DNA of 46,150 nt from Syntrophomonadaceae bacterium (lineage in GTDB: Bacteria; Bacillota; DSM-12270; Thermacetogeniales; Thermacetogeniaceae): positions 1 through 46,150 of the forward strand of contig DULK01000081.1 of NCBI GenBank assembly GCA_012840385.1, written 5' to 3'. Below, piece by piece: positions 27,115 to 36,328 of the stretch; positions within the stretch are counted from its first letter, which is position 1, and each line of letters starts with the position of its first letter. The notes under the pieces are model-generated. The model ran no database searches. It saw only the letters and a program-made list of their open reading frames with translations, and was not told where the DNA came from. Both the position numbers and the translations under genes were made by a program.

Positions 27115-27207
27115 TGGTCCCAAGTATATAAACTCTTCGCAAGAAATCCCCCGTTAGCGCAAAAATTTTGAATTGAGGGGGATTGTGCCCCAAATTATTA
27201 TAAAATT
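27115..27207 (+). promoter_or_regulatory. Shared control element, copy 1 (module I operon)
   Basis: The last ~62 bases are almost identical, one substitution by eye, to the minus-strand copy at 34423-34511. The upstream ~30 bases are alike but diverged. It holds an inverted repeat (ATCCCCC / GGGGGAT, about 24 bases apart, with AAAATTTT in the middle), a GGGGGATTGTGCCCC palindrome, and an AT-rich TTATTATAAAATT suited to a -10 region. It precedes the corrinoid-protein gene. The other copy precedes the divergent methyltransferase gene, so both are probably bound by one regulator. Confidence 0.85.
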
Positions 27208-27453
27208 GCAGAGGTTCACCGGTGACAATTCATCAGCAGGGCTTCCAAAAGGTGCTGCACGTGCGGCCTGCTAGAGTTGGATTTTCCGGGATGATTCCCT
27301 TTGGTGATGCCATTACCCTAAGTAGGCTTCTGAAACTTTCGTTATCTCTGACCAGCGGTAACTGCCTCCGTGTGCGGGTATTCATCCCGGTAATTCATGC
27401 TCATAACTAAAAAAAGTACGGTGAAATGTCAAAAAATATTAGGAGGTTTGAAA
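27208..27453 (+). other. Long untranslated leader of the module I operon
   Basis: About 245 bases between the control element and the first start codon. It contains a GCAGG...CCTGC hairpin (27236-27273) and other short stems. No known riboswitch consensus was recognised, including cobalamin, SAM and THF. It is not shared with the other operon carrying the same control element. Confidence 0.35.
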
Positions 27454-28077
27454 ATGGAAGAACTAACAAAAGCAATTGTTGAATTAGAAAATGAAAAAGT
27501 TACCAAAATGGTGAAGGATGAGCTCGTTAAAGGAACAGCAGTAGAAGAGATTGTTGAAAAATGCAGGCAGGGCATGGAAATAGTCGGTCAGAAGTTCAGC
27601 AAAGGGGAATACTTCCTTCCCGAATTAATTATGGCCGGAGAGATTTTTAACTCCATCATCGAGATCATCCGTCCTGTTCTAGCGGAAGCCAAAACAAATA
27701 CTGTTGGAAAGATTGTCCTGGCAACTGTCCAAAATGACATCCACGATATTGGAAAGAATGTATTCAAGGGATTTGCGGAGGCTAACGGCTTTGATGTCCA
27801 CGACCTGGGAGTAGATGTCGATCCCGAAACAATTGTCAATACCATTAAAAATGAAAAGCCGGATATTGTCGGCCTGAGCTGTCTCCTCACATCAGCTTTT
27901 GACTCCATAGAAAACACAATCGCTAAAATCAAAGAAGCAGGTGTCCGCGACCAGGTAAAAATTATCATCGGTGGTGCTCCGGTAAGCGAAGAGCTTAAGG
28001 ATTGGTCGGGCGCTGACGCCGCCACCAGGAGCGCTGCTGAAGGTGTGCAACTCTGTAAAGAATTATTGAAGAAATAG
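27454..28077 (+). CDS. Corrinoid (methyl-carrier) protein, module I
   Basis: 207 residues from ATG 27454 behind AGGAGG. An upstream in-frame ATG at 27397 gives a basic tail foreign to the family. The helical cap domain is at 1-80 and the B12-binding Rossmann domain at about 85-207. The lower-ligand motif D95-x-H97-x-x-G100 is in NDIHDIGKN. It carries the methyl group between the URO-D-type methyltransferase coded next and a methyltetrahydrofolate-type partner, probably the one at 33487-34284. It is the MtaC/MtvC/MtoC type of protein. Confidence 0.93.
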   Translation: MEELTKAIVELENEKVTKMVKDELVKGTAVEEIVEKCRQGMEIVGQKFSKGEYFLPELIMAGEIFNSIIEIIRPVLAEAKTNTVGKIVLATVQNDIHDIGKNVFKGFAEANGFDVHDLGVDVDPETIVNTIKNEKPDIVGLSCLLTSAFDSIENTIAKIKEAGVRDQVKIIIGGAPVSEELKDWSGADAATRSAAEGVQLCKELLKK

Positions 28078-28090
28078 GAAAGGAGGTCCG

Positions 28091-29275
28091 ATGAACATGG
28101 CTGAAAATAAGAACTTGAAATTATATGAGGAGCGGTTAAACCGCATAGTCAAAGCGATGCAGCTTGAAGAACCCGACCGTGTTCCTCTGATCCCGCCAGA
28201 AGAAGGTTACTGGGTTGCTGCGTATGCCGGGTATTCTGTCGCCGATGTTACCTATGACTACTCCCTGCTGGCGGCAGCGTGGGAAAAGGCTTTTACGGAC
28301 TTTCCGGAGTGGGATGCCGCTTACGCTCCATTCTGCGTATGGTCCGGCCCTATGTTCGAATTCGCGGGGATCACTCAATTTGCCCTTGCCGGGAAAGACG
28401 GTGCTGCCCAGAAGATGCACCAGTGGAAACAGGTTTCCTGTATGTCTGAAGACGAGTACGACGAACTGATTGCCGATCCCTACAAGTTCCTCCTGGAAAA
28501 AATCTTGCCGCGGCGCTGCAAGGAATTAGGAAAACCATACCCCAGAAATGCAATGGCTTTTGGGAAAGCCTTCCAGGAGTTCCTGAGCTGGCTCGGTTAC
28601 TGGGGTGCAAAAGGTGCCGAATGGAAAGAGAAATTCGGCATGCCGGTACTCGCCGGCGGATTTACCGAAGCCCCCATTGACTTCCTGATGGATCACTTGC
28701 GCGGCTTTAAGGAATTCTCTCTTGATTTGCGGAAGTTACCGAAGGAAACTATCATCCGGGCCTGTGAAGCCCTGCTTCCCTACATGATCAAGTGGGCAAC
28801 CACAGGAACCCGGCCGGCTCTCTTCCCGCCAATCTTCATTCCACTGCATTTTGCTCCTTTCATTTCACCTGATTGTTTCAAGGAATTCTACTGGCCTACC
28901 TTCAAAAAACTTGTCGATTCACTGGTCGAACTGGGATATGGCGTAATCATCTACTGTGAATCAAACTGGACACCGCACCTGGCTTACCTGAAAGAACTTC
29001 CAAAAGGAAAAGTGATTGCCGAGTTCGAAACAATTGATATGAAAGAGGCCAAAAAGCTCATCGGAGATACAGTCTGCCTGATGGGCAACCTCCCCTACGA
29101 ACTGCTTGTGTACGGGACAAAGGAGAAAATTGAAGATTATACCAAGAAGCTGATTGATGAAGCCGCGCCAGGTGGAGGCTTTATCATGTCCGCCGATAAA
29201 ATCTTTGGTGAAAATGTCAACCCCAAATGCATGAGGTACTGGTGCGAAGCCGTAGTTAAATACGGTCAATACTAA
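28091..29275 (+). CDS. URO-D-superfamily corrinoid methyltransferase, module I
   Basis: 394 residues. ATG 28091 lies 4 bases after AGGAGG; ATG 28097, two codons on, is equally possible. The fold family is that of uroporphyrinogen decarboxylase, which includes MtaA/MtbA, CmuA and O-demethylase methyltransferases: early DRVPLIPPE, GVIIYCESNW, then KGKVIAEFETIDMKEAKKLIG and CLMGNLPYELLVYGT. The HxC zinc motif of MtaA-type enzymes is replaced by YCESNW. Together with the adjacent corrinoid protein, this suggests a primary substrate:corrinoid methyltransferase (for example for a methoxylated compound) rather than a coenzyme-M-type enzyme. Confidence 0.85.
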   Translation: MNMAENKNLKLYEERLNRIVKAMQLEEPDRVPLIPPEEGYWVAAYAGYSVADVTYDYSLLAAAWEKAFTDFPEWDAAYAPFCVWSGPMFEFAGITQFALAGKDGAAQKMHQWKQVSCMSEDEYDELIADPYKFLLEKILPRRCKELGKPYPRNAMAFGKAFQEFLSWLGYWGAKGAEWKEKFGMPVLAGGFTEAPIDFLMDHLRGFKEFSLDLRKLPKETIIRACEALLPYMIKWATTGTRPALFPPIFIPLHFAPFISPDCFKEFYWPTFKKLVDSLVELGYGVIIYCESNWTPHLAYLKELPKGKVIAEFETIDMKEAKKLIGDTVCLMGNLPYELLVYGTKEKIEDYTKKLIDEAAPGGGFIMSADKIFGENVNPKCMRYWCEAVVKYGQY

Positions 29276-29384
29276 TTAGCTTGGTATCTCTAATTAAAGG
29301 TCAATAAAAAACATAAAAACAACTGGTTTAAGACAGGTTCCAAGACATACATTTAATAATCCGGGGATAAGGAGGAAAGGCAGA

Positions 29385-29537
29385 ATGAGTGAAAAATTAC
29401 CGCCGGTTGTCTCCGAGTACTATAAACTTATAGAAGAAACTGGAAATGAAAGTGCAGCAGCTGCAGCCATGGCAAGGAAGTGGAACATTGCCGAAGATCT
29501 TGTTCTCTCGTTTGTCCTGTTTCTAGTTAGTTACTAA
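29385..29537 (+). CDS. Small hypothetical protein, 50 residues
   Basis: ATG 29385 follows a very good AAGGAGGAAAGG site at ideal spacing. The frame reads MSEKLPPVVSEYYKLIEETG, an alanine-rich middle (AAAAAMARKWNIAED) and a hydrophobic end (LVLSFVLFLVSY). A perfect hairpin follows 14 bases after the stop. The strong ribosome site and position at the end of a methyl-transfer operon argue that it is real. I know no family for it. Confidence 0.55.
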   Translation: MSEKLPPVVSEYYKLIEETGNESAAAAAMARKWNIAEDLVLSFVLFLVSY

Positions 29538-29551
29538 AATATTTTTACAAA

Positions 29552-29577
29552 CCCGGTGATGCATTAACATCACCGGG
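29552..29577 (+). terminator. Hairpin closing the corrinoid/methyltransferase operon
   Basis: Perfect 10-bp arms CCCGGTGATG / CATCACCGGG with a 6-base loop. No T run follows, so it may be a processing or mRNA-stabilising 3' end rather than an intrinsic terminator. Confidence 0.55.
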
Positions 29578-29655
29578 ATACCCCCCATTCAGGGGCCGGG
29601 CTGGCTATTCGCATATCCTGTGCTCTCTTTACCTGCTGTTCCCGGCTCTTTTGCT

Positions 29656-29695
29656 AGGTGCTCTTTGCCAGGTGCTATACCAAGTGCTCTATAAT
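29656..29695 (+). promoter_or_regulatory. Possible promoter with iterated GGTGCT motif before the sensor kinase
   Basis: TTGCCA (29665-29670) and TATAAT (29690-29695) are separated by 19 bases. AGGTGCT, AGGTGCT and AAGTGCT occur at 29656, 29670 and 29682, steps of 14 and 12, across the same interval. The motif could be a regulator site. Confidence 0.35.
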
Positions 29696-29843
29696 AGCTC
29701 GCTTCTCCAGAATAAACCTATTGGGGCATCAGGAGCGAGCATAACAAAAGTGGAGTGTTCTTTTGCGGTTTGTGCACGTTTCTCCTTGGCAGGTCCAGTG
29801 GAAAGTAGCGAGGGAGGGCTTAGATCTGAGCAGGAAGGTCTTC

Positions 29844-31667
29844 ATGACAATTGCCGAAACATTAATCAAAGGTGATTCCTTCGGGGTTAAACAGTTGATA
29901 GAGCAGGCCCTGGAGGGGGGGATCGCTCCTGAGGACATTATCAAAGAAAGCCTGATCCCGGGCATGGAAACAGTAAGCGTCAAATTCCAGAGCGGTGAAT
30001 TCTACGTGATGGATGTTATCACCGCAGCGGATGCTATGCAAACTGGTATCAAGATACTGAAAGAAAGGTCTCGCGGCGAAAGAATACTTGATTTCCATGG
30101 CCGGATTGTCATCGGAACAGTGGAGGGTGACATCCATGATCTGGGCAAGAACATCGTCGCCCTGACGCTGGAAGGGGCGGGGTACGAAGTCATTGACCTG
30201 GGTGTGAATGTTTCCCCGGCTCAGTTCGTAGAGGCCATCGCAAAATTCCACCCGGATCTCGTCTGCATCTCCGCCCTGCTGACAGTGACCATGTGCAACA
30301 TCGAAGATGTCATCAAAGCCATCAAAGAAGCCGGCTTCCGGGAACAGGTCAAAATTATCATCGGGGGGGCGCCGATCACCCAGAGCTTTTCCGACAGGAT
30401 CGGGGCAGATGCTTATGTCAAATACGGCACTGATGCTCCTTATAAGGCAAGAGAGCTGTTAAAAAGTAGCAAGCAAAAAGATTTACGGGATCATCTGGCG
30501 GCAGTCCTGGACGCAAAATGCCAGGAAAGGTTGAAGGCGCTGCTCGAAGTTTGCCCCACCTTCATAGACGCGGCAGGGAATGTCATCCTCCAGGGGGATG
30601 GGGAGCCCCCTGGGCCTTGCCTACAGTGCCCGGAATGGCGGCAGCAGCAGTACATCGAGAATGCCGGGATCTTCTCCTGCCCCTGCGGCTTTATAAAAAT
30701 CGACGCAACAGTTATACTTGAAGGTAAAGCACTGGGGAAGATCTCCTTCGGTCCCTTTGCAGAAGGGATCGCCTCAACAGGAGGAGGCGGTTTCTCCCAT
30801 AACAGGGCTGGCTCAACCTGCCCTCGTATTAATGGGCCGGAGAACGAATTCGCTTTCCAGAGCATGAAAGCACCTCCACTGAAAGCGGAAAAAATGCTTC
30901 TCATTATCCAGGCTTTTTCCGAGCTTGTGCAGGAAAAGATAAAGGAGCAGCAGCTACAGCAGCAAATCGAAGAACAAAAAGAAAGCCTGATCCGTTCGCT
31001 GAAATTCCAGGAAGAGCTGAAGAACGCCCTTAATGAAGCAAACTACCGCTCACTGCAGTCACAGGTTAACCCCCATTTTTTGTTCAACAGCCTGAACAGT
31101 CTGGCCCGCATGGCAATGCTGGAAGGAGCGGAGCAAACCGAAAAACTGTCCTACGCTCTCGCACGAATTCTTCGCTACATCCTCCAGAACTTCAAGGGTA
31201 CGGTTACCATCGCCGAAGAAATCAAAATGCTTCAGGACTACCTCTTCATCCAGCAGGCACGTTTTTCCGATCGTCTCCAAATAGAGTTTCAGCTTGAAGA
31301 AGGTATTGAGAAGGCGCACATTCCCTGCTTGGTACTGCAGCCGCTCGTGGAGAATGCCGTCCTGCACGGTATTGAGCCTCTTGAAGGGGAAGGAGTACTC
31401 AAGATCTGCGGCAGGCTGGAAAAGCAGAAGATCATTTTCGAAATAAGGGATAACGGGGTCGGTATCCCCCCCAGCAAACTGAAGGAAATTTCCCAGCTCA
31501 ACATTAACAGCTCCGGACGCGGCCATACGACCGGTCTCGGTCTTGCCCACGTCCACCAGCGCCTCCAGCATTACTTCGGGGCCGATTATGGCCTGGAAAT
31601 TGAAAGCCATGAGAACGAAGGCACTCTAGTGAGGATAAATTTTCCCTATATCCACCAGGGTGGGTGA
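29844..31667 (+). CDS. Sensor histidine kinase with B12-binding and PocR domains
   Basis: 607 residues from ATG 29844 (AGGAAGG site; 27 extra in-frame residues upstream are not family-like). Order: corrinoid cap domain (1-80); B12-binding domain (85-205) with D96-x-H98-x-x-G101; PocR-type sensory domain (about 215-320) with cysteines C237, C259, C262, C279 and C281; coiled coil (360-400); LytS-type kinase with phospho-accepting H411 in NPHFLFN; and ATPase boxes LVENAVLHG and DNGVGIP. No membrane helix. It probably senses a bound corrinoid or its methylation state and signals to the regulator coded 6 bases downstream. Confidence 0.9.
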   Translation: MTIAETLIKGDSFGVKQLIEQALEGGIAPEDIIKESLIPGMETVSVKFQSGEFYVMDVITAADAMQTGIKILKERSRGERILDFHGRIVIGTVEGDIHDLGKNIVALTLEGAGYEVIDLGVNVSPAQFVEAIAKFHPDLVCISALLTVTMCNIEDVIKAIKEAGFREQVKIIIGGAPITQSFSDRIGADAYVKYGTDAPYKARELLKSSKQKDLRDHLAAVLDAKCQERLKALLEVCPTFIDAAGNVILQGDGEPPGPCLQCPEWRQQQYIENAGIFSCPCGFIKIDATVILEGKALGKISFGPFAEGIASTGGGGFSHNRAGSTCPRINGPENEFAFQSMKAPPLKAEKMLLIIQAFSELVQEKIKEQQLQQQIEEQKESLIRSLKFQEELKNALNEANYRSLQSQVNPHFLFNSLNSLARMAMLEGAEQTEKLSYALARILRYILQNFKGTVTIAEEIKMLQDYLFIQQARFSDRLQIEFQLEEGIEKAHIPCLVLQPLVENAVLHGIEPLEGEGVLKICGRLEKQKIIFEIRDNGVGIPPSKLKEISQLNINSSGRGHTTGLGLAHVHQRLQHYFGADYGLEIESHENEGTLVRINFPYIHQGG

Positions 31668-31673
31668 TTATAG

Positions 31674-33299
31674 TTGTATTCTGTCATGATTGTAGACGAT
31701 GAAGCCCTGGAAAGAAAAGGGTGGAGGATGATCCTGGAAAGATATCGGTCGGACCAGATCCGTGTGGCCGTAGAGGCGAAAAACGGCAAAGAAGCGGTGG
31801 AACTGGCATGGAAAACGCGACCCGACATCATCCTGATGGATGTGAAAATGCCGGGACTTGACGGGATTATGGCCAGCAAAGCCATAAAGAAGTTTCTTCC
31901 TGAGGTCAAAATAATCATTATTTCCGCCTATGACGATTTTGCCTACGCTCATGAGGCAATGCAGTTGAGGGCTGTGAACTACCTCTTAAAACCCGTTCAG
32001 CGCGGGGACATGCTTGATATCATCGACAGGCAGCTACAAGAGTTGGAAAATGAAAGGAAGCGAAAGGCGGAAGAAGAGGAACTACGGGAAGCGCTCCAGA
32101 GGATGATGCCTTACATCAAAATTGGCTTTATCTTCGAACTGCTAGCGGGAAATGTCAAATCCGCTGCAGAGATTCGTGAGAGAGCAGAATTTCTGGGAAT
32201 CAAACAGCTGCCGCAGGTAATACTTGTTGCCAACATTGATAACTTTGTGCAGCTCACCAGGAACAAGAAGGAAATCGAGCGCCAAGTTCTGAAACACAAA
32301 ATCTTTGAAAAAATAACAGCAGTTTCTAGAGAATGGCCGCAGAGCCTCTGCATCCCCTTGCAAGAGGACAAATATGGGATCCTTCTGGGGCCGCAGGATG
32401 GTGAGCATCCGGAAAAGCTGCGCAGGCGTGCTGAACGCCTAGCGGAGACCATAAGAAGGGAGATCGAAAACGATCCCTTTATCCACACTACGGTCACCAT
32501 CGGAATAGGAAGGACCTACCGAGAGGTTGACAATCTCCATCTTTCCTATAAAGAGGCCCTGAGGGCGCTTGAATACAAGCTCTATACAGACGGAAACCAG
32601 GTCATACATATTGACGATGTGCTCCCCTACGATGAACGCATTCACACCTACCCCTATACACTGGAGAAGGAGCTTATCTCCAGTTTCCGCATCGGAGACA
32701 GGGAATGTGCTCTCCAGTGGCTGGAAGAGTTACTTAGTGAACTGCTTTCCAAAACAAACAACAATCCCGTTCTTCTCAAAACCCGGCTGCTCCAACTGCT
32801 GCTCGTTCTCTCCCGCCAGGCAATCGAAAGCGGGGCAGATCCCGAAGAAGTAGGCAGACAGGATTTTACCTGCGCTCAGGAACTGCAGAGCAAAGAGAAT
32901 TTAAATGAACTGCGGAAGTGGGTTGTGGCAAAAGTTGAACAGTTGATACGGTTGATTCAGGAAAGCCGCAGCCAGCGCCAGGAAAACATCATGAAAAAAG
33001 TGGTTAACTACATCCACCAGCACTACCACCGCGACCTTACCCTGGAAGAGGTAGCAGAAGCGGTCCATTTCAGCCCCTGCTACCTGAGCCGGATCTTCAA
33101 ACAGATGCAGAAAGTCAATTTCATCGATTACCTCACTCGGGTAAGGCTGGAAAAAGCAAAAATGCTACTCAAAGCAAGCAACTATTCCATCTCGAGCATT
33201 GCCAGAAAAGTCGGGTACCAGGATCCCAAATACTTCAGTACCCTATTCAAAAAGCACGTTGGCTGTACACCGAGCGAGTACCGGCAGAATATTGCATAG
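31674..33299 (+). CDS. AraC-type response regulator (YesN-like)
   Basis: 541 residues from TTG 31674 (GGGTGGG upstream; ATG 31686 is a weaker alternative inside the first strand). The receiver domain spans 1-120, with the VDDE acidic pair near the N-terminus, the phospho-site aspartate in IILMDVKMPG, and KPVQ. A long middle region (about 130-420) with coiled-coil and YesN/GGDEF-like folds follows. The C-terminal AraC DNA-binding domain has FSPCYLSRIFKQM and ISSIARKVGYQDPKYFSTLFKK. It is the partner of the B12-domain kinase. The duplicated control element at 27115 and 34511 is its most likely target. Confidence 0.92.
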   Translation: MYSVMIVDDEALERKGWRMILERYRSDQIRVAVEAKNGKEAVELAWKTRPDIILMDVKMPGLDGIMASKAIKKFLPEVKIIIISAYDDFAYAHEAMQLRAVNYLLKPVQRGDMLDIIDRQLQELENERKRKAEEEELREALQRMMPYIKIGFIFELLAGNVKSAAEIRERAEFLGIKQLPQVILVANIDNFVQLTRNKKEIERQVLKHKIFEKITAVSREWPQSLCIPLQEDKYGILLGPQDGEHPEKLRRRAERLAETIRREIENDPFIHTTVTIGIGRTYREVDNLHLSYKEALRALEYKLYTDGNQVIHIDDVLPYDERIHTYPYTLEKELISSFRIGDRECALQWLEELLSELLSKTNNNPVLLKTRLLQLLLVLSRQAIESGADPEEVGRQDFTCAQELQSKENLNELRKWVVAKVEQLIRLIQESRSQRQENIMKKVVNYIHQHYHRDLTLEEVAEAVHFSPCYLSRIFKQMQKVNFIDYLTRVRLEKAKMLLKASNYSISSIARKVGYQDPKYFSTLFKKHVGCTPSEYRQNIA

Positions 33300-33486
33300 A
33301 AACATCGGTTGCGCTCACCAGTGCTTTCAAAATGAGGATTCAGATTACTATCCTCAGCCCCCAGTTCTATCAACCGCTGTCTCTGGGTAACCGTCCAGGT
33401 GCTCCCCTTTCTAACCGTGCATGGTCATGCGGAGCACCCTCGGTTCAGCTTATACCGCCGCCCTTCTCCCTGCAGGCGTCTATAGG
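33300..33486. other. Convergent intergenic stretch with hairpins
   Basis: It contains a TGAGGAT..ATCCTCA hairpin (33331-33356) and GGTGCTCC/GGAGCACC arms at 33399-33438. The latter, read on the minus strand with its TGCACGGTTAG and CCGAGGGTGC neighbours, reminds me of sequence found at ends of group II introns or similar elements. No gene is seen. Confidence 0.4.
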
Positions 33487-34284
33487 CTAGAAATCGAATT
33501 TATTTTTTCTGTAAGCCTTAAGATAATTGGTGCAATATTTATCCCGGCCCGCCAGCGTCTCGGCAGCAGTTATGCAAGCCATCATCCGCTGATCCAGCGG
33601 GTTGATGATCAGAGCGTCGAGTCCCTTTGCTATGGCCATCACCGCAAAGGTCTGATTCAAGAATTTGCGGGCCGGCAATCCGTAAGAGATGTTGGAAAGC
33701 CCGCATATCGTGTGCACACCGGCAAACCCGGTCATGATGGCCTCAACGGCGTTCAGAAATTCGATGCCAAAGGTATCTTTTGTCCCCACCGGCTGAACCA
33801 GGGGGTCTACGTAGATGTTATCAAGAGGAATGTTGGCTCTGGTCAAACCATTGATGAGCTTTTCGGCAATCTTTAGCCTGTCATCCGTGGTTTCAGGCAT
33901 GCCATCATCGCTCATGCAGAGTGCCACCACTTTCAGATCGGTGCCGGAGATAACCGGCAGGAGGGCGTCATAGCGTTGCTTCTCCAGGGAAATGGAATTG
34001 ATCATTGCCACTCCTCTATGCACTGTCAGAGCGGCCTCGATGGCTTTCGGGTCGGGACTGTCAATGCAACAAGGGCAGTCCACCACCTCCTGGACGTTCT
34101 GAACCAGCCATTTCAGATAGTCGGCCTCTTTGCCCACAAATATTCCGGCATTGACATCAATGTAATCAGCCCCTGCCTGGCGCTGTTCCCGGGCCACCTT
34201 TTTGATGGCATCAGCGTCCTGTGCCTCGATCATTTCTGCAATCGGCTTGCGGCTGGCATTGATCAGTTCTCCAACAACCAGCAT
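33487..34284 (-). CDS. DHPS-like corrinoid:tetrahydrofolate methyltransferase, module I
   Basis: 265 residues on the minus strand. The pterin-binding TIM-barrel family of MtgA/MtvA/AcsE is evident from the opening GELINASRKPI, YIDVNAGIF, CIDSPDPKAIEAAL, MINSIS, VVALCMSDDGMP, YVDPLVQPVG and GLSNISYGLP. It would move the methyl group from the corrinoid protein to tetrahydrofolate, or the reverse. It is transcribed divergently from module II but preceded by the same control element as the module I operon, so it belongs functionally to that operon. It is clearly homologous to the protein at 38665 but not a recent duplicate. Confidence 0.92.
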   Translation of the reverse strand: MLVVGELINASRKPIAEMIEAQDADAIKKVAREQRQAGADYIDVNAGIFVGKEADYLKWLVQNVQEVVDCPCCIDSPDPKAIEAALTVHRGVAMINSISLEKQRYDALLPVISGTDLKVVALCMSDDGMPETTDDRLKIAEKLINGLTRANIPLDNIYVDPLVQPVGTKDTFGIEFLNAVEAIMTGFAGVHTICGLSNISYGLPARKFLNQTFAVMAIAKGLDALIINPLDQRMMACITAAETLAGRDKYCTNYLKAYRKNKFDF

Positions 34285-34422
34285 CTCAGTACCTCCTCGT
34301 AGTTCTGATTATTGAAATCCTTCTCCTAACAGGGGTATGGAAGACAACTCCACCGTATATATGTATTGCGTATATCATCCAGATTCAAAGTTATATCTGT
34401 ACTTCGTATATCCTCAAAGATT

Positions 34423-34511
34423 AATTTTATAATAATTTGGGGCACAATCCCCCTCAATTCAAAATTTTTGCGCTAATGGGGGATCTCTTGCCGAGAGTTC
34501 ATACTTGGACC
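34423..34511 (-). promoter_or_regulatory. Shared control element, copy 2 (divergent methyltransferase gene)
   Basis: The reverse complement nearly duplicates 27115-27207, including the ATCCCCC/GGGGGAT inverted repeat, GGGGGATTGTGCCCC and the AT-rich promoter-proximal end. It faces the minus-strand methyltransferase gene with about 140 bases of leader in between. Confidence 0.85.
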
Positions 34512-34603: not shown

Positions 34604-34635
34604 AAACGACTCGGTTAGTCGAAAGTGACTCGTTT
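34604..34635. promoter_or_regulatory. Candidate upstream activator site for the sigma-54 promoter
   Basis: Imperfect palindrome: the left arm reads AAACGACTCG. The right arm, on the other strand, reads AAACGAGTCAC. An inner GACT...AGTC pair is also present. It is centred about 90 bases upstream of the expected start point, the usual position for an enhancer-binding protein such as the one coded at 39678. Confidence 0.6.
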
Positions 34636-34655
34636 CTGTTTTGCCGCCTGCTATT

Positions 34656-34684
34656 AAAACCCCATGAAATGAGGGGGTTTTTTT
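34656..34684 (+). terminator. Intrinsic terminator just upstream of the sigma-54 promoter
   Basis: AAAACCCC ... GGGGGTTTTTTT with an ATGAAATGA loop. It lies between the activator site and the promoter, with no + strand gene upstream. Its effect would be to stop read-through into module II. Confidence 0.75.
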
Positions 34685-34702: not shown

Positions 34703-34843
34703 ATAACAGCCGGCAGGGCTATTTTTACATCTACTATCTTGCCCAGGGTTAACCCGGGAATTTGTTTCTTGAAGTAAAGGAGGGGTTCATTAGGGGTCGA
34801 TGCTTGGTTAGCCTGACACTTAATTATGAGGGGAGGATTTACA

Positions 34844-36328
34844 GTGATCAGAAGTCTGAAGGCAGGATTTAATTCATTATCGGGATTCGGGCTGAACGCC
34901 TTTACAGCAGATGAGTTGGAATCGCTTCACCTTGCCACGCTGGAAGTGCTGTCCGAGGTGGGGATCAAAGTAGAGTCCGACGAGGCCATCGAGATATTCC
35001 AGGGTGCAGGTGCCAAGGTTGAACGGGTCAAGGATTACGGTATTGTAAAGTTTCCTCACTACCTTGTGGAGGATTGCATCCGGTGGGCTCCCAGAAACGT
35101 TATATATTACGGAAGAGATAGCAATAAAGATTACATCCTGGAACCCAAACGGGTAGGCTTCAGCACTTTTGGCGAGTGCATCCAGGTGATTGATCCCTAT
35201 ACCAGGCAGGTTAGAAAATCGGTCAAGAGTGATCTGGGAGGAGCTACCCTGGTTTGTGACTACCTGGATGAGATTGTTGCGGTTGAAAGGGCTCTCTGCT
35301 CTTCGGATCAGTTTCCCGAAACGCAGCCGTTACATAATTTCGAGGCAATGGTCACAAACACCGGCAAACATCTTCTGCTCGGTTTTGGAAGTGGTGCAAA
35401 CACGAAAAAGATTATCGAAATGGCGGCGGCATGCGTCGGGGGTATGGAAAATTTCAAGAAGCGGCCTATTGTGACGGCATTTGTATGCCCCACCAGTCCT
35501 CTGACCCTCGTTAAGAGGTGCTGTGAAGTTATCATCGAGTGCGCCCGGCTTGGAGCGGGTATAGCCATTATCCCCATGGCCCTGTCCGGTGCAACCTCGA
35601 CCGCGACCCTGGCGGGGACGCTGGTTCAGCATAACGCGGAAGTATTGAGTGCTTTGATGCTGGCCCAGTTGACCAACAAGGGTACGCCCTGCACCTATTC
35701 AAGCTGCACTACAATGATGGATTTGAGATTTACGATTACGGCCGTCGGCGCTCCAGAATACGGGATTATCAGCGCCGGATTGGCTAAACTTGCCCAGTAT
35801 TACCGGCTTCCGGTATGGGTGGGTGGAGGCCATTCGGACAGCAAGCTTCCCGATGCCCAGGCAGCCTATGAAGCCAGTATAACTGCAACCGTCGCTGCGT
35901 TAGCCGGTGCCAATGTTATTTACGGTGCGGGTTGCCTGGAATCCGGTTTGACCTTTGATTATGCCAAACTGGTTATGGACGCCGAAATGATCAGGGGGGT
36001 TCAACAGGTTGTCAAGGGGATCGAAGTTAATGACGAAACTTTGGGGATTGACGTTATTAAAGAAGTGGGTCCCGGCGGTGAGTTCATGACACATCCCCAT
36101 ACTTTCAAACACATGAAAGAATTGTCCCAGTCCCGATTGTTTGACAGGAGAAACCGTGAGTCCTGGCAGGAGTTTGCAGGCGGTAAGGACCTGACGGAGC
36201 GAGCCTATGAAGAAGCAAAGCACATCCTTGAGAACCACAAGCCTGCGCCGCTGCCTGACGGTGCTGCCGAAGCCATGAAGTCTATTATCGAGGAGTATGA
36301 AGCGGAACTGAAAACCAACCACCAGTAA
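34844..36328 (+). CDS. MttB-superfamily quaternary-amine:corrinoid methyltransferase (MtgB-like)
   Basis: 494 residues from GTG 34844 behind GAGGGGAGGA. The MttB family (COG5598) is recognised from LHLATLEVLSEVGIKV, FSTFGECIQVIDPYTRQVRKS, LVQHNAEVLSALMLAQL and LPDAQAAYEASITATVAALAGANVIYGAGCLESG. There is no in-frame TAG, so it is a non-pyrrolysine member, the group that includes glycine betaine (MtgB), carnitine and proline betaine methyltransferases. It would pass one methyl group to the corrinoid protein at 37941. The BCCT gene 22 bases on supports a betaine-like substrate. First gene of the sigma-54 operon. Confidence 0.9.
   Translation: MIRSLKAGFNSLSGFGLNAFTADELESLHLATLEVLSEVGIKVESDEAIEIFQGAGAKVERVKDYGIVKFPHYLVEDCIRWAPRNVIYYGRDSNKDYILEPKRVGFSTFGECIQVIDPYTRQVRKSVKSDLGGATLVCDYLDEIVAVERALCSSDQFPETQPLHNFEAMVTNTGKHLLLGFGSGANTKKIIEMAAACVGGMENFKKRPIVTAFVCPTSPLTLVKRCCEVIIECARLGAGIAIIPMALSGATSTATLAGTLVQHNAEVLSALMLAQLTNKGTPCTYSSCTTMMDLRFTITAVGAPEYGIISAGLAKLAQYYRLPVWVGGGHSDSKLPDAQAAYEASITATVAALAGANVIYGAGCLESGLTFDYAKLVMDAEMIRGVQQVVKGIEVNDETLGIDVIKEVGPGGEFMTHPHTFKHMKELSQSRLFDRRNRESWQEFAGGKDLTERAYEEAKHILENHKPAPLPDGAAEAMKSIIEEYEAELKTNHQ

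Follow-up and report, generated by a model that had tools for sequence, protein, structure and literature searches.

The window, meaning the whole 46,150-nucleotide stretch analysed here from a Syntrophomonadaceae bacterium, contains a methyl-transfer module encoded on both strands. CP1 (27454..28077, +) encodes a corrinoid protein with Pfam B12-binding and B12-binding_2 domains, while MT1 (28091..29275, +) encodes a UroD-type methyltransferase (Pfam URO-D) whose sole non-UroD relative in the PDB is CdmB (9rui, E 6.9e-36), a chloromethane methyltransferase. A conserved ORF of 50 amino acids (29385..29537, +) separates MT1 from the kinase gene; its identity is 86-90% in the relatives G007 and G013 and 44% in G006. 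The kinase gene, corHK (29763..31667, +), encodes a histidine kinase that begins with a corrinoid-protein module and also contains a PocR-like domain, as assigned using Pfam, alignment, a structural model and Foldseek. This gene is followed by one for a YesN-like response regulator (31674..33299, +), recognised from its Pfam domains (Response_reg, GGDEF_2 and HTH_18/HTH_AraC) and its orthologues. Finally, MT2 (33487..34284, -) encodes a methyltetrahydrofolate:corrinoid methyltransferase with a Pfam Pterin_bind domain, matching NF005719 at 358 bits (cutoff 259).

CP1 and MT2 are each preceded by a copy of the same element. In a gapless local alignment, copy I (27127..27207, +) and copy II (34423..34503, -) are identical at 76 of 81 positions, with a single mismatch in the last 62 bases of copy I (27146-27207) and none in the last 54 (27154-27207). 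The probability of an exact repeat of 54-55 bases arising by chance within 46 kb is negligible (approximately 1e-24). Beyond the 81-column block, weaker similarity with small gaps can be followed by eye to approximately 27115 and 34511 (GGTCCCAAGTATATAAACTC versus GGTCCAAGTATGAACTC); the limits given in the original prediction, which described copies differing by about one base over ~62 with unrelated flanks, are therefore right. The flanks are otherwise unrelated. Copy I leads to the corrinoid-protein gene (27454, +) 246 bp downstream and copy II to the pterin-binding methyltransferase gene (34284, -) 138 bp downstream. Both thus lead to a module gene, as had been proposed, and the position of copy II ahead of MT2 supports the proposal that this opposite-strand methyltransferase is joined to the operon.

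Searches of the 2.70-Mb genome, which is 98.8% complete, by BLAST and with a 22-bp core allowing up to three mismatches revealed no third copy. The many copies unrelated to methyl transfer that would have spoken against a dedicated control element are therefore not seen. The same 22-bp core has other three-mismatch matches outside the family. A match to the element in G059 appears by eye to sit in coding-like sequence and was taken as chance. Two near-identical inverted copies approximately 7 kb apart could also be read as a mobile or recombination-prone sequence that regulates nothing. We disfavour this reading and give it hardly any credence, since the genome holds no further copies, the module contains no mobile gene, and the element is conserved over large divergence at a fixed position before operons (see below).

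Comparison with relatives indicates that the duplicated element is an operator-promoter. Each copy contains a direct repeat of a GCAA half-site with a 20-bp spacing; the proximal half-site, GCAAnAATTTnGnnTTG, extends into the -35 hexamer of a predicted sigma-A promoter, with the -10 box 17 bp on. In copy I, the distal half-site GCAAGAAATC occupies 27139..27148 (+), the proximal half-site GCAAAAATTTTGAATTG 27159..27175 (+) and the core promoter TTGAGG-N17-TATTAT 27173..27201 (+). In copy II, the distal half-site GCAAGAGATC lies at 34482..34491 (-), the proximal half-site GCAAAAATTTTGAATTG at 34455..34471 (-) and the same core promoter at 34429..34457 (-), with a predicted start at ~34422. The TTG of the conserved block forms the first bases of the -35 hexamer TTGAGG, and the promoter-like AT tract noted in the original prediction corresponds to the -10 region. 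Relative to the predicted start of copy I (~27208), the distal half-site lies at about -69 and the proximal one at about -49, extending to -33. Elsewhere between 26.8 and 34.9 kb, 12 other promoter-like sites were counted against 8.3 expected by chance, which is near expectation.

Identity between the copies ends at 27207, adjoining the predicted start, so the duplicated unit appears to be a promoter cassette. Since the copies are identical through the spacer and diverge at the predicted start, copy II is most simply explained as a recent promoter-only duplicate carrying no transcribed sequence.

The layout of the element recurs ahead of methyltransferase operons in four further members of the family; a second family, f14, adds nine genomes (G032, G115, G201, G225, G249, G272, G317, G377 and G395). 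In nearly all of these genomes it is accompanied by orthologues of the two-component system encoded between the window copies. The closest case is G007, in which gene order from the corrinoid protein to the regulator is the same as in the window and the regulator is 80% identical; at this locus copy I is best matched by a block of 46 bp ahead of the operon, with a score of 29 where shuffled sequence reaches at most 14.5. G013 and G006 likewise have the conserved block before their orthologous operons, and in G011 it precedes a differently composed methyltransferase operon with a kinase and regulator. The f14 regulators are only ~40-43% identical to that of the window, and their operons run in the order corrinoid protein, MT2, kinase and regulator. 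As judged from the sequence start at one or two loci, these genes are followed by a ferredoxin-like activator and a UroD-type methyltransferase. Upstream of the f14 operons lies GGCAAGAAAACAAACCTTTGGCAAGAATTTAGCCTTG, followed by a -10-like box. Loci L027 and L029, on contigs without the operon start, were left out of the operator comparison.

Alignment of the 15 sites on the proximal half-site revealed which positions are kept. In that half-site, CAA, ATTT and TTG are invariant in all 15, whereas the intervening and surrounding sequences differ. Located 19-20 bp further upstream is a distal GCAA or a close variant of it; its CAA is kept in 14 sites, the exception being G006, where GCAA is shifted by one base to give a 19-bp spacing. 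A hexamer resembling a -10 box is found 17 or 18 bp beyond the -35. The sites thus have the hallmarks of an AraC-type class II operator, with direct half-sites about two helical turns apart and the proximal half-site overlapping or abutting a sigma-A -35. The -35/-10 spacer, which holds GGGGGATTGTGCCCC, is conserved between the two window copies only.

This conservation upholds the view of the repeat as a control element while moving its recognition site. The original prediction described a core with GGGGGATTGTGCCCC and an ATCCCCC/GGGGGAT inverted repeat; these fall within the -35/-10 spacer, which is not conserved, and the inter-half-site linker. Recognition is instead predicted to depend on the directly repeated GCAA half-sites that adjoin the -35. 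The inverted repeat is indeed present in both window copies and could in principle serve as a palindromic operator or RNA hairpin. However, its arms are absent from the orthologous elements of G007, G013, G006 and f14, it lies upstream of the predicted start, and the copy I leader is not unusually structured (z -0.23) and matches no Rfam family. We therefore disfavour this explanation as very improbable, and the inverted repeat is probably incidental. A riboswitch or other RNA element was likewise rejected, given that neither element nor leader has an Rfam match and the leader shows no excess structure.

Module composition varies around the operator. MT2 is encoded within the operon in f14 and G011 and is reached through a second promoter in the window genome. 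G007 and G013 each contain the element once, with no MT2 gene tied by a second copy, so this arrangement is so far specific to the window genome. In G148, another f14 genome, there is no corrinoid-protein gene, only a remnant of MT2 is left, and the operator was not found either, which speaks for a link between operator and module. G006 retains the operator and CP1, but its MT1 is frameshifted and the module looks decayed; no regulator orthologue was detected there at E<=1e-80.

A gapped pattern, GCAA-N15/16-GCAAnAATTTnnnnTTG, was scanned over 398 genomes of the phylum and gave 17 matches in 15 genomes; the reversed control pattern gave two. Ten of the 17 are the methyl-transfer promoters described above (G000 twice, G006, G007 and six f14 genomes), five fall inside long ORFs, and the remaining two belong to a G263 repeat array. 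Outside that array, the intergenic matches are therefore methyl-transfer promoters only. Of the 16 genomes with a close regulator orthologue, eight belong to the set of 15 that match the pattern (hypergeometric P 5e-9; counting by genus gives 0.003, the fairer figure given that the genomes are related). As the pattern was composed after the sites had been seen, the scan demonstrates the rarity and good placement of the sites rather than a blind prediction. The duplication, the promoter grammar, the conservation of this grammar and its co-occurrence with the regulator are thus established by sequence comparison, the basis of all the evidence presented here.

The proteins encoded between the copies have the features of a YesM/YesN pair. 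The kinase is of the LytS/YesM type, with PF06580 (His_kinase) and PF02518 (HATPase_c) domains and an invariant NPHFLFNSLN motif that includes the conserved phosphoacceptor histidine. The regulator contains a PF00072 receiver and an AraC-type helix-turn-helix (PF12833 and PF00165), with Asp-8, Asp-9, Asp-56 and Lys-106 invariant in the orthologue alignment. Retention of the phosphorylation residues in both proteins supports a working two-component pair in which the regulator would be phosphorylated. The kinase also contains a corrinoid-binding module (Pfam B12-binding_2 and B12-binding, with a DxHxxG...GG motif), of which D123, H125, G128, G201 and G202 are invariant over seven kinases. Its N-terminus resembles methyl-carrier corrinoid domains (MttC 7xcn, 1y80) and its C-terminus is GanS-like, according to alignment, Foldseek and a structural model of moderate quality (pLDDT 67, pTM 0.37) used for single-domain folds only. 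The PocR domain (PF10114) scores 16.9 bits in the window kinase, under the 23.9 threshold, and 39-64 bits, above it, in relatives from f14, G051 and G085.

The original prediction named an AraC-type regulator encoded between the copies as the binder. The operator accompanies orthologues of this regulator into a second family, making it the likely binder; it is nonetheless a response regulator (receiver, GGDEF-like and AraC helix-turn-helix domains) paired with the corrinoid-binding kinase encoded just upstream, not a stand-alone AraC protein. A recognition-helix sequence, SPCYxSRxFKQ, is common to the regulators of both families. The helix SPC/STC-Y-x-S-R-x-F-K also occurs in two corHK-linked regulators of G051 and G085, near which no operator of this kind was seen. 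Alternatively, an unlinked AraC-type or YesN-like regulator could bind the operator, with the adjacent two-component system acting elsewhere: G006 has the element with no detected regulator orthologue, and first-look counts give many REC/AraC-type candidates per genome. This seems improbable given the strong association across the 398 genomes, with the element heading operons that hold orthologues of the linked regulator in two families, and given the frameshifted MT1 and decayed appearance of the G006 module.

We therefore favour the linked regulator, and propose, with a probability of roughly 80%, that the element combines a sigma-A promoter dependent on an activator with an operator for that activator, the YesN-like regulator encoded between the copies. 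From the sequence features we infer binding, phosphorylation, activation over repression and the nature of the signal. Once phosphorylated, the regulator would occupy both GCAA half-sites, near -69 and -49. AraC-type class II activation uses the same geometry, as in araI1-I2, and from this position the regulator would recruit RNA polymerase to the weak TTGAGG-N17-TATTAT promoter. Copy I would drive CP1, MT1, the small ORF, corHK and the regulator gene, making the circuit autoregulatory, while copy II, as a recent duplicate of the promoter up to the start point, would place the divergent MT2 gene under the control that governs copy I.

Taken alone, the footprint would be compatible with either activation or repression. 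Repression by the linked regulator, whose binding beside the -35 would block polymerase until substrate is sensed, accords with an operator that abuts the -35, and AraC-type proteins can repress. On the other hand, no site overlaps the -10 or +1, and a weak -35 with a direct repeat just upstream is typical of activation, as by AraC and RhaS. We consider repression unlikely and activation the better reading.

The signal for activation is the least certain part of the proposal, the likeliest candidates being the substrate or methylation of the kinase's own corrinoid. Substrate may be registered through the kinase's corrinoid-protein domain, which MT1 would methylate when substrate is available, through binding to the PocR-like domain, or by both routes. 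The kinase has a methyl-carrier corrinoid domain, and the neighbouring genes encode methyltransferases for which such domains are targets, an arrangement suggestive of a sensor for corrinoid methylation. The PocR-like domain might instead sense a ligand, and the two modes are compatible. More tentatively, and at less than even odds, the kinase may be a flux sensor: MT1, or MT2 in reverse, would methylate the kinase corrinoid like the catalytic corrinoid protein, and its methylation state would set kinase activity and, through regulator and operator, pathway expression.

Judged by sequence, the protein pair and the operator are each of a known kind, YesM/YesN and AraC class II, respectively. 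As in araI1-I2 of pBAD, two direct half-sites lie ~20-21 bp apart with the proximal one touching the -35, and the proposed binder has an AraC helix-turn-helix domain. Unlike AraC, which binds a ligand, the proposed binder is a response regulator with a receiver domain. Further differences are the half-site, GCAAnAATTTnG, and the target, corrinoid methyl transfer. The kinase and regulator share their architecture with GanS and other YesM/YesN systems (LytS-type kinase, AraC response regulator). Among solved structures, GanS (6swj/6swk) is nearest to the kinase, and response-regulator entries in the GanS numbering series are among those nearest to the regulator. Unlike these kinases, corHK begins with a corrinoid-protein module and a PocR-like domain. 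CarH and the photocobilins, which are B12-binding light sensors, use a similar B12-binding fold in a regulatory role, but the corHK domain most resembles methyl-carrier corrinoid proteins.

The mec cassette of anaerobic dichloromethane degraders likewise combines a two-component system, a PocR kinase and a corrinoid methyltransferase cluster. In the available passages of PMC9768040, MecA (430 aa) is described with PocR only, for which ligand sensing is proposed, alongside MecD (272 aa); those passages describe no operator. Having a corrinoid module, corHK falls outside the MecA class of mec-cassette PocR kinases that lack a corrinoid domain. CdmB, the closest solved relative of MT1, belongs to the cdmBCA chloromethane methyltransferase of Acetobacterium dehalogenans, whose regulatory system was not identified by its authors; the same 2026 study describes the regulation of 26 systems in that organism as largely unexplored (PMC13222342). 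No corrinoid-fused kinase of the corHK kind was found described in the open-access literature searched, and as far as that literature shows, this kinase, the operator sequence and their conserved link are new.

Anaerobes encode numerous paralogous corrinoid methyltransferase modules, and for most of them little has been learned about what turns them on. The module described here offers a defined operator, a probable regulator and a sensor kinase with a corrinoid carrier domain, kept in two families. The operator could serve in regulon discovery, in attributing genes encoded apart from their module, such as MT2, and in testing whether methylated corrinoid is a transcriptional signal. Related promoters alongside genes for B12-type sensors in other bacteria suggest how little-understood methyl-transfer systems may be switched on.

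Between the gene for the UroD-type methyltransferase MT1 and that for the corrinoid-fused histidine kinase lies a 50-aa ORF (29385-29537, + strand), whose identity is 86-90% in the family members G007 and G013 and 44% in G006. A GC-rich hairpin is located 3' of this ORF (29552-29577), and both G007 and G013 have it as well. In G006, locus L046 (G006:C24) retains the corrinoid protein and the operator while its MT1 carries a frameshift, and a search of this genome for an orthologue of the YesN-like regulator found none at E<=1e-80. The L046 module is apparently decaying.

Genome G085 encodes a corrinoid-fused kinase and regulator pair at locus L183 (G085:C26, 3002-6527) to which no methyltransferase genes are adjacent. 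The pair is flanked by an rpoN-like gene on one side and by genes resembling gap-pgk-tpi by eye on the other.

The window also contains a cobalamin riboswitch (688-871, - strand, 128 bits). Two terminator-like hairpins (34607-34674, - strand) occupy the intergenic region between copy II, the operator-promoter preceding the MT2 gene, and a divergent MttB-family gene (34826-36328, + strand). Despite passing the pyrrolysine-type model TIGR02369 and containing a PYLIS_3 match that begins at 35831, the MttB-family gene lacks an in-frame TAG; the codon at 35831 encodes His (GGGHSDS). A BCCT transporter adjoins the gene, which is therefore likely to have a quaternary-amine role.
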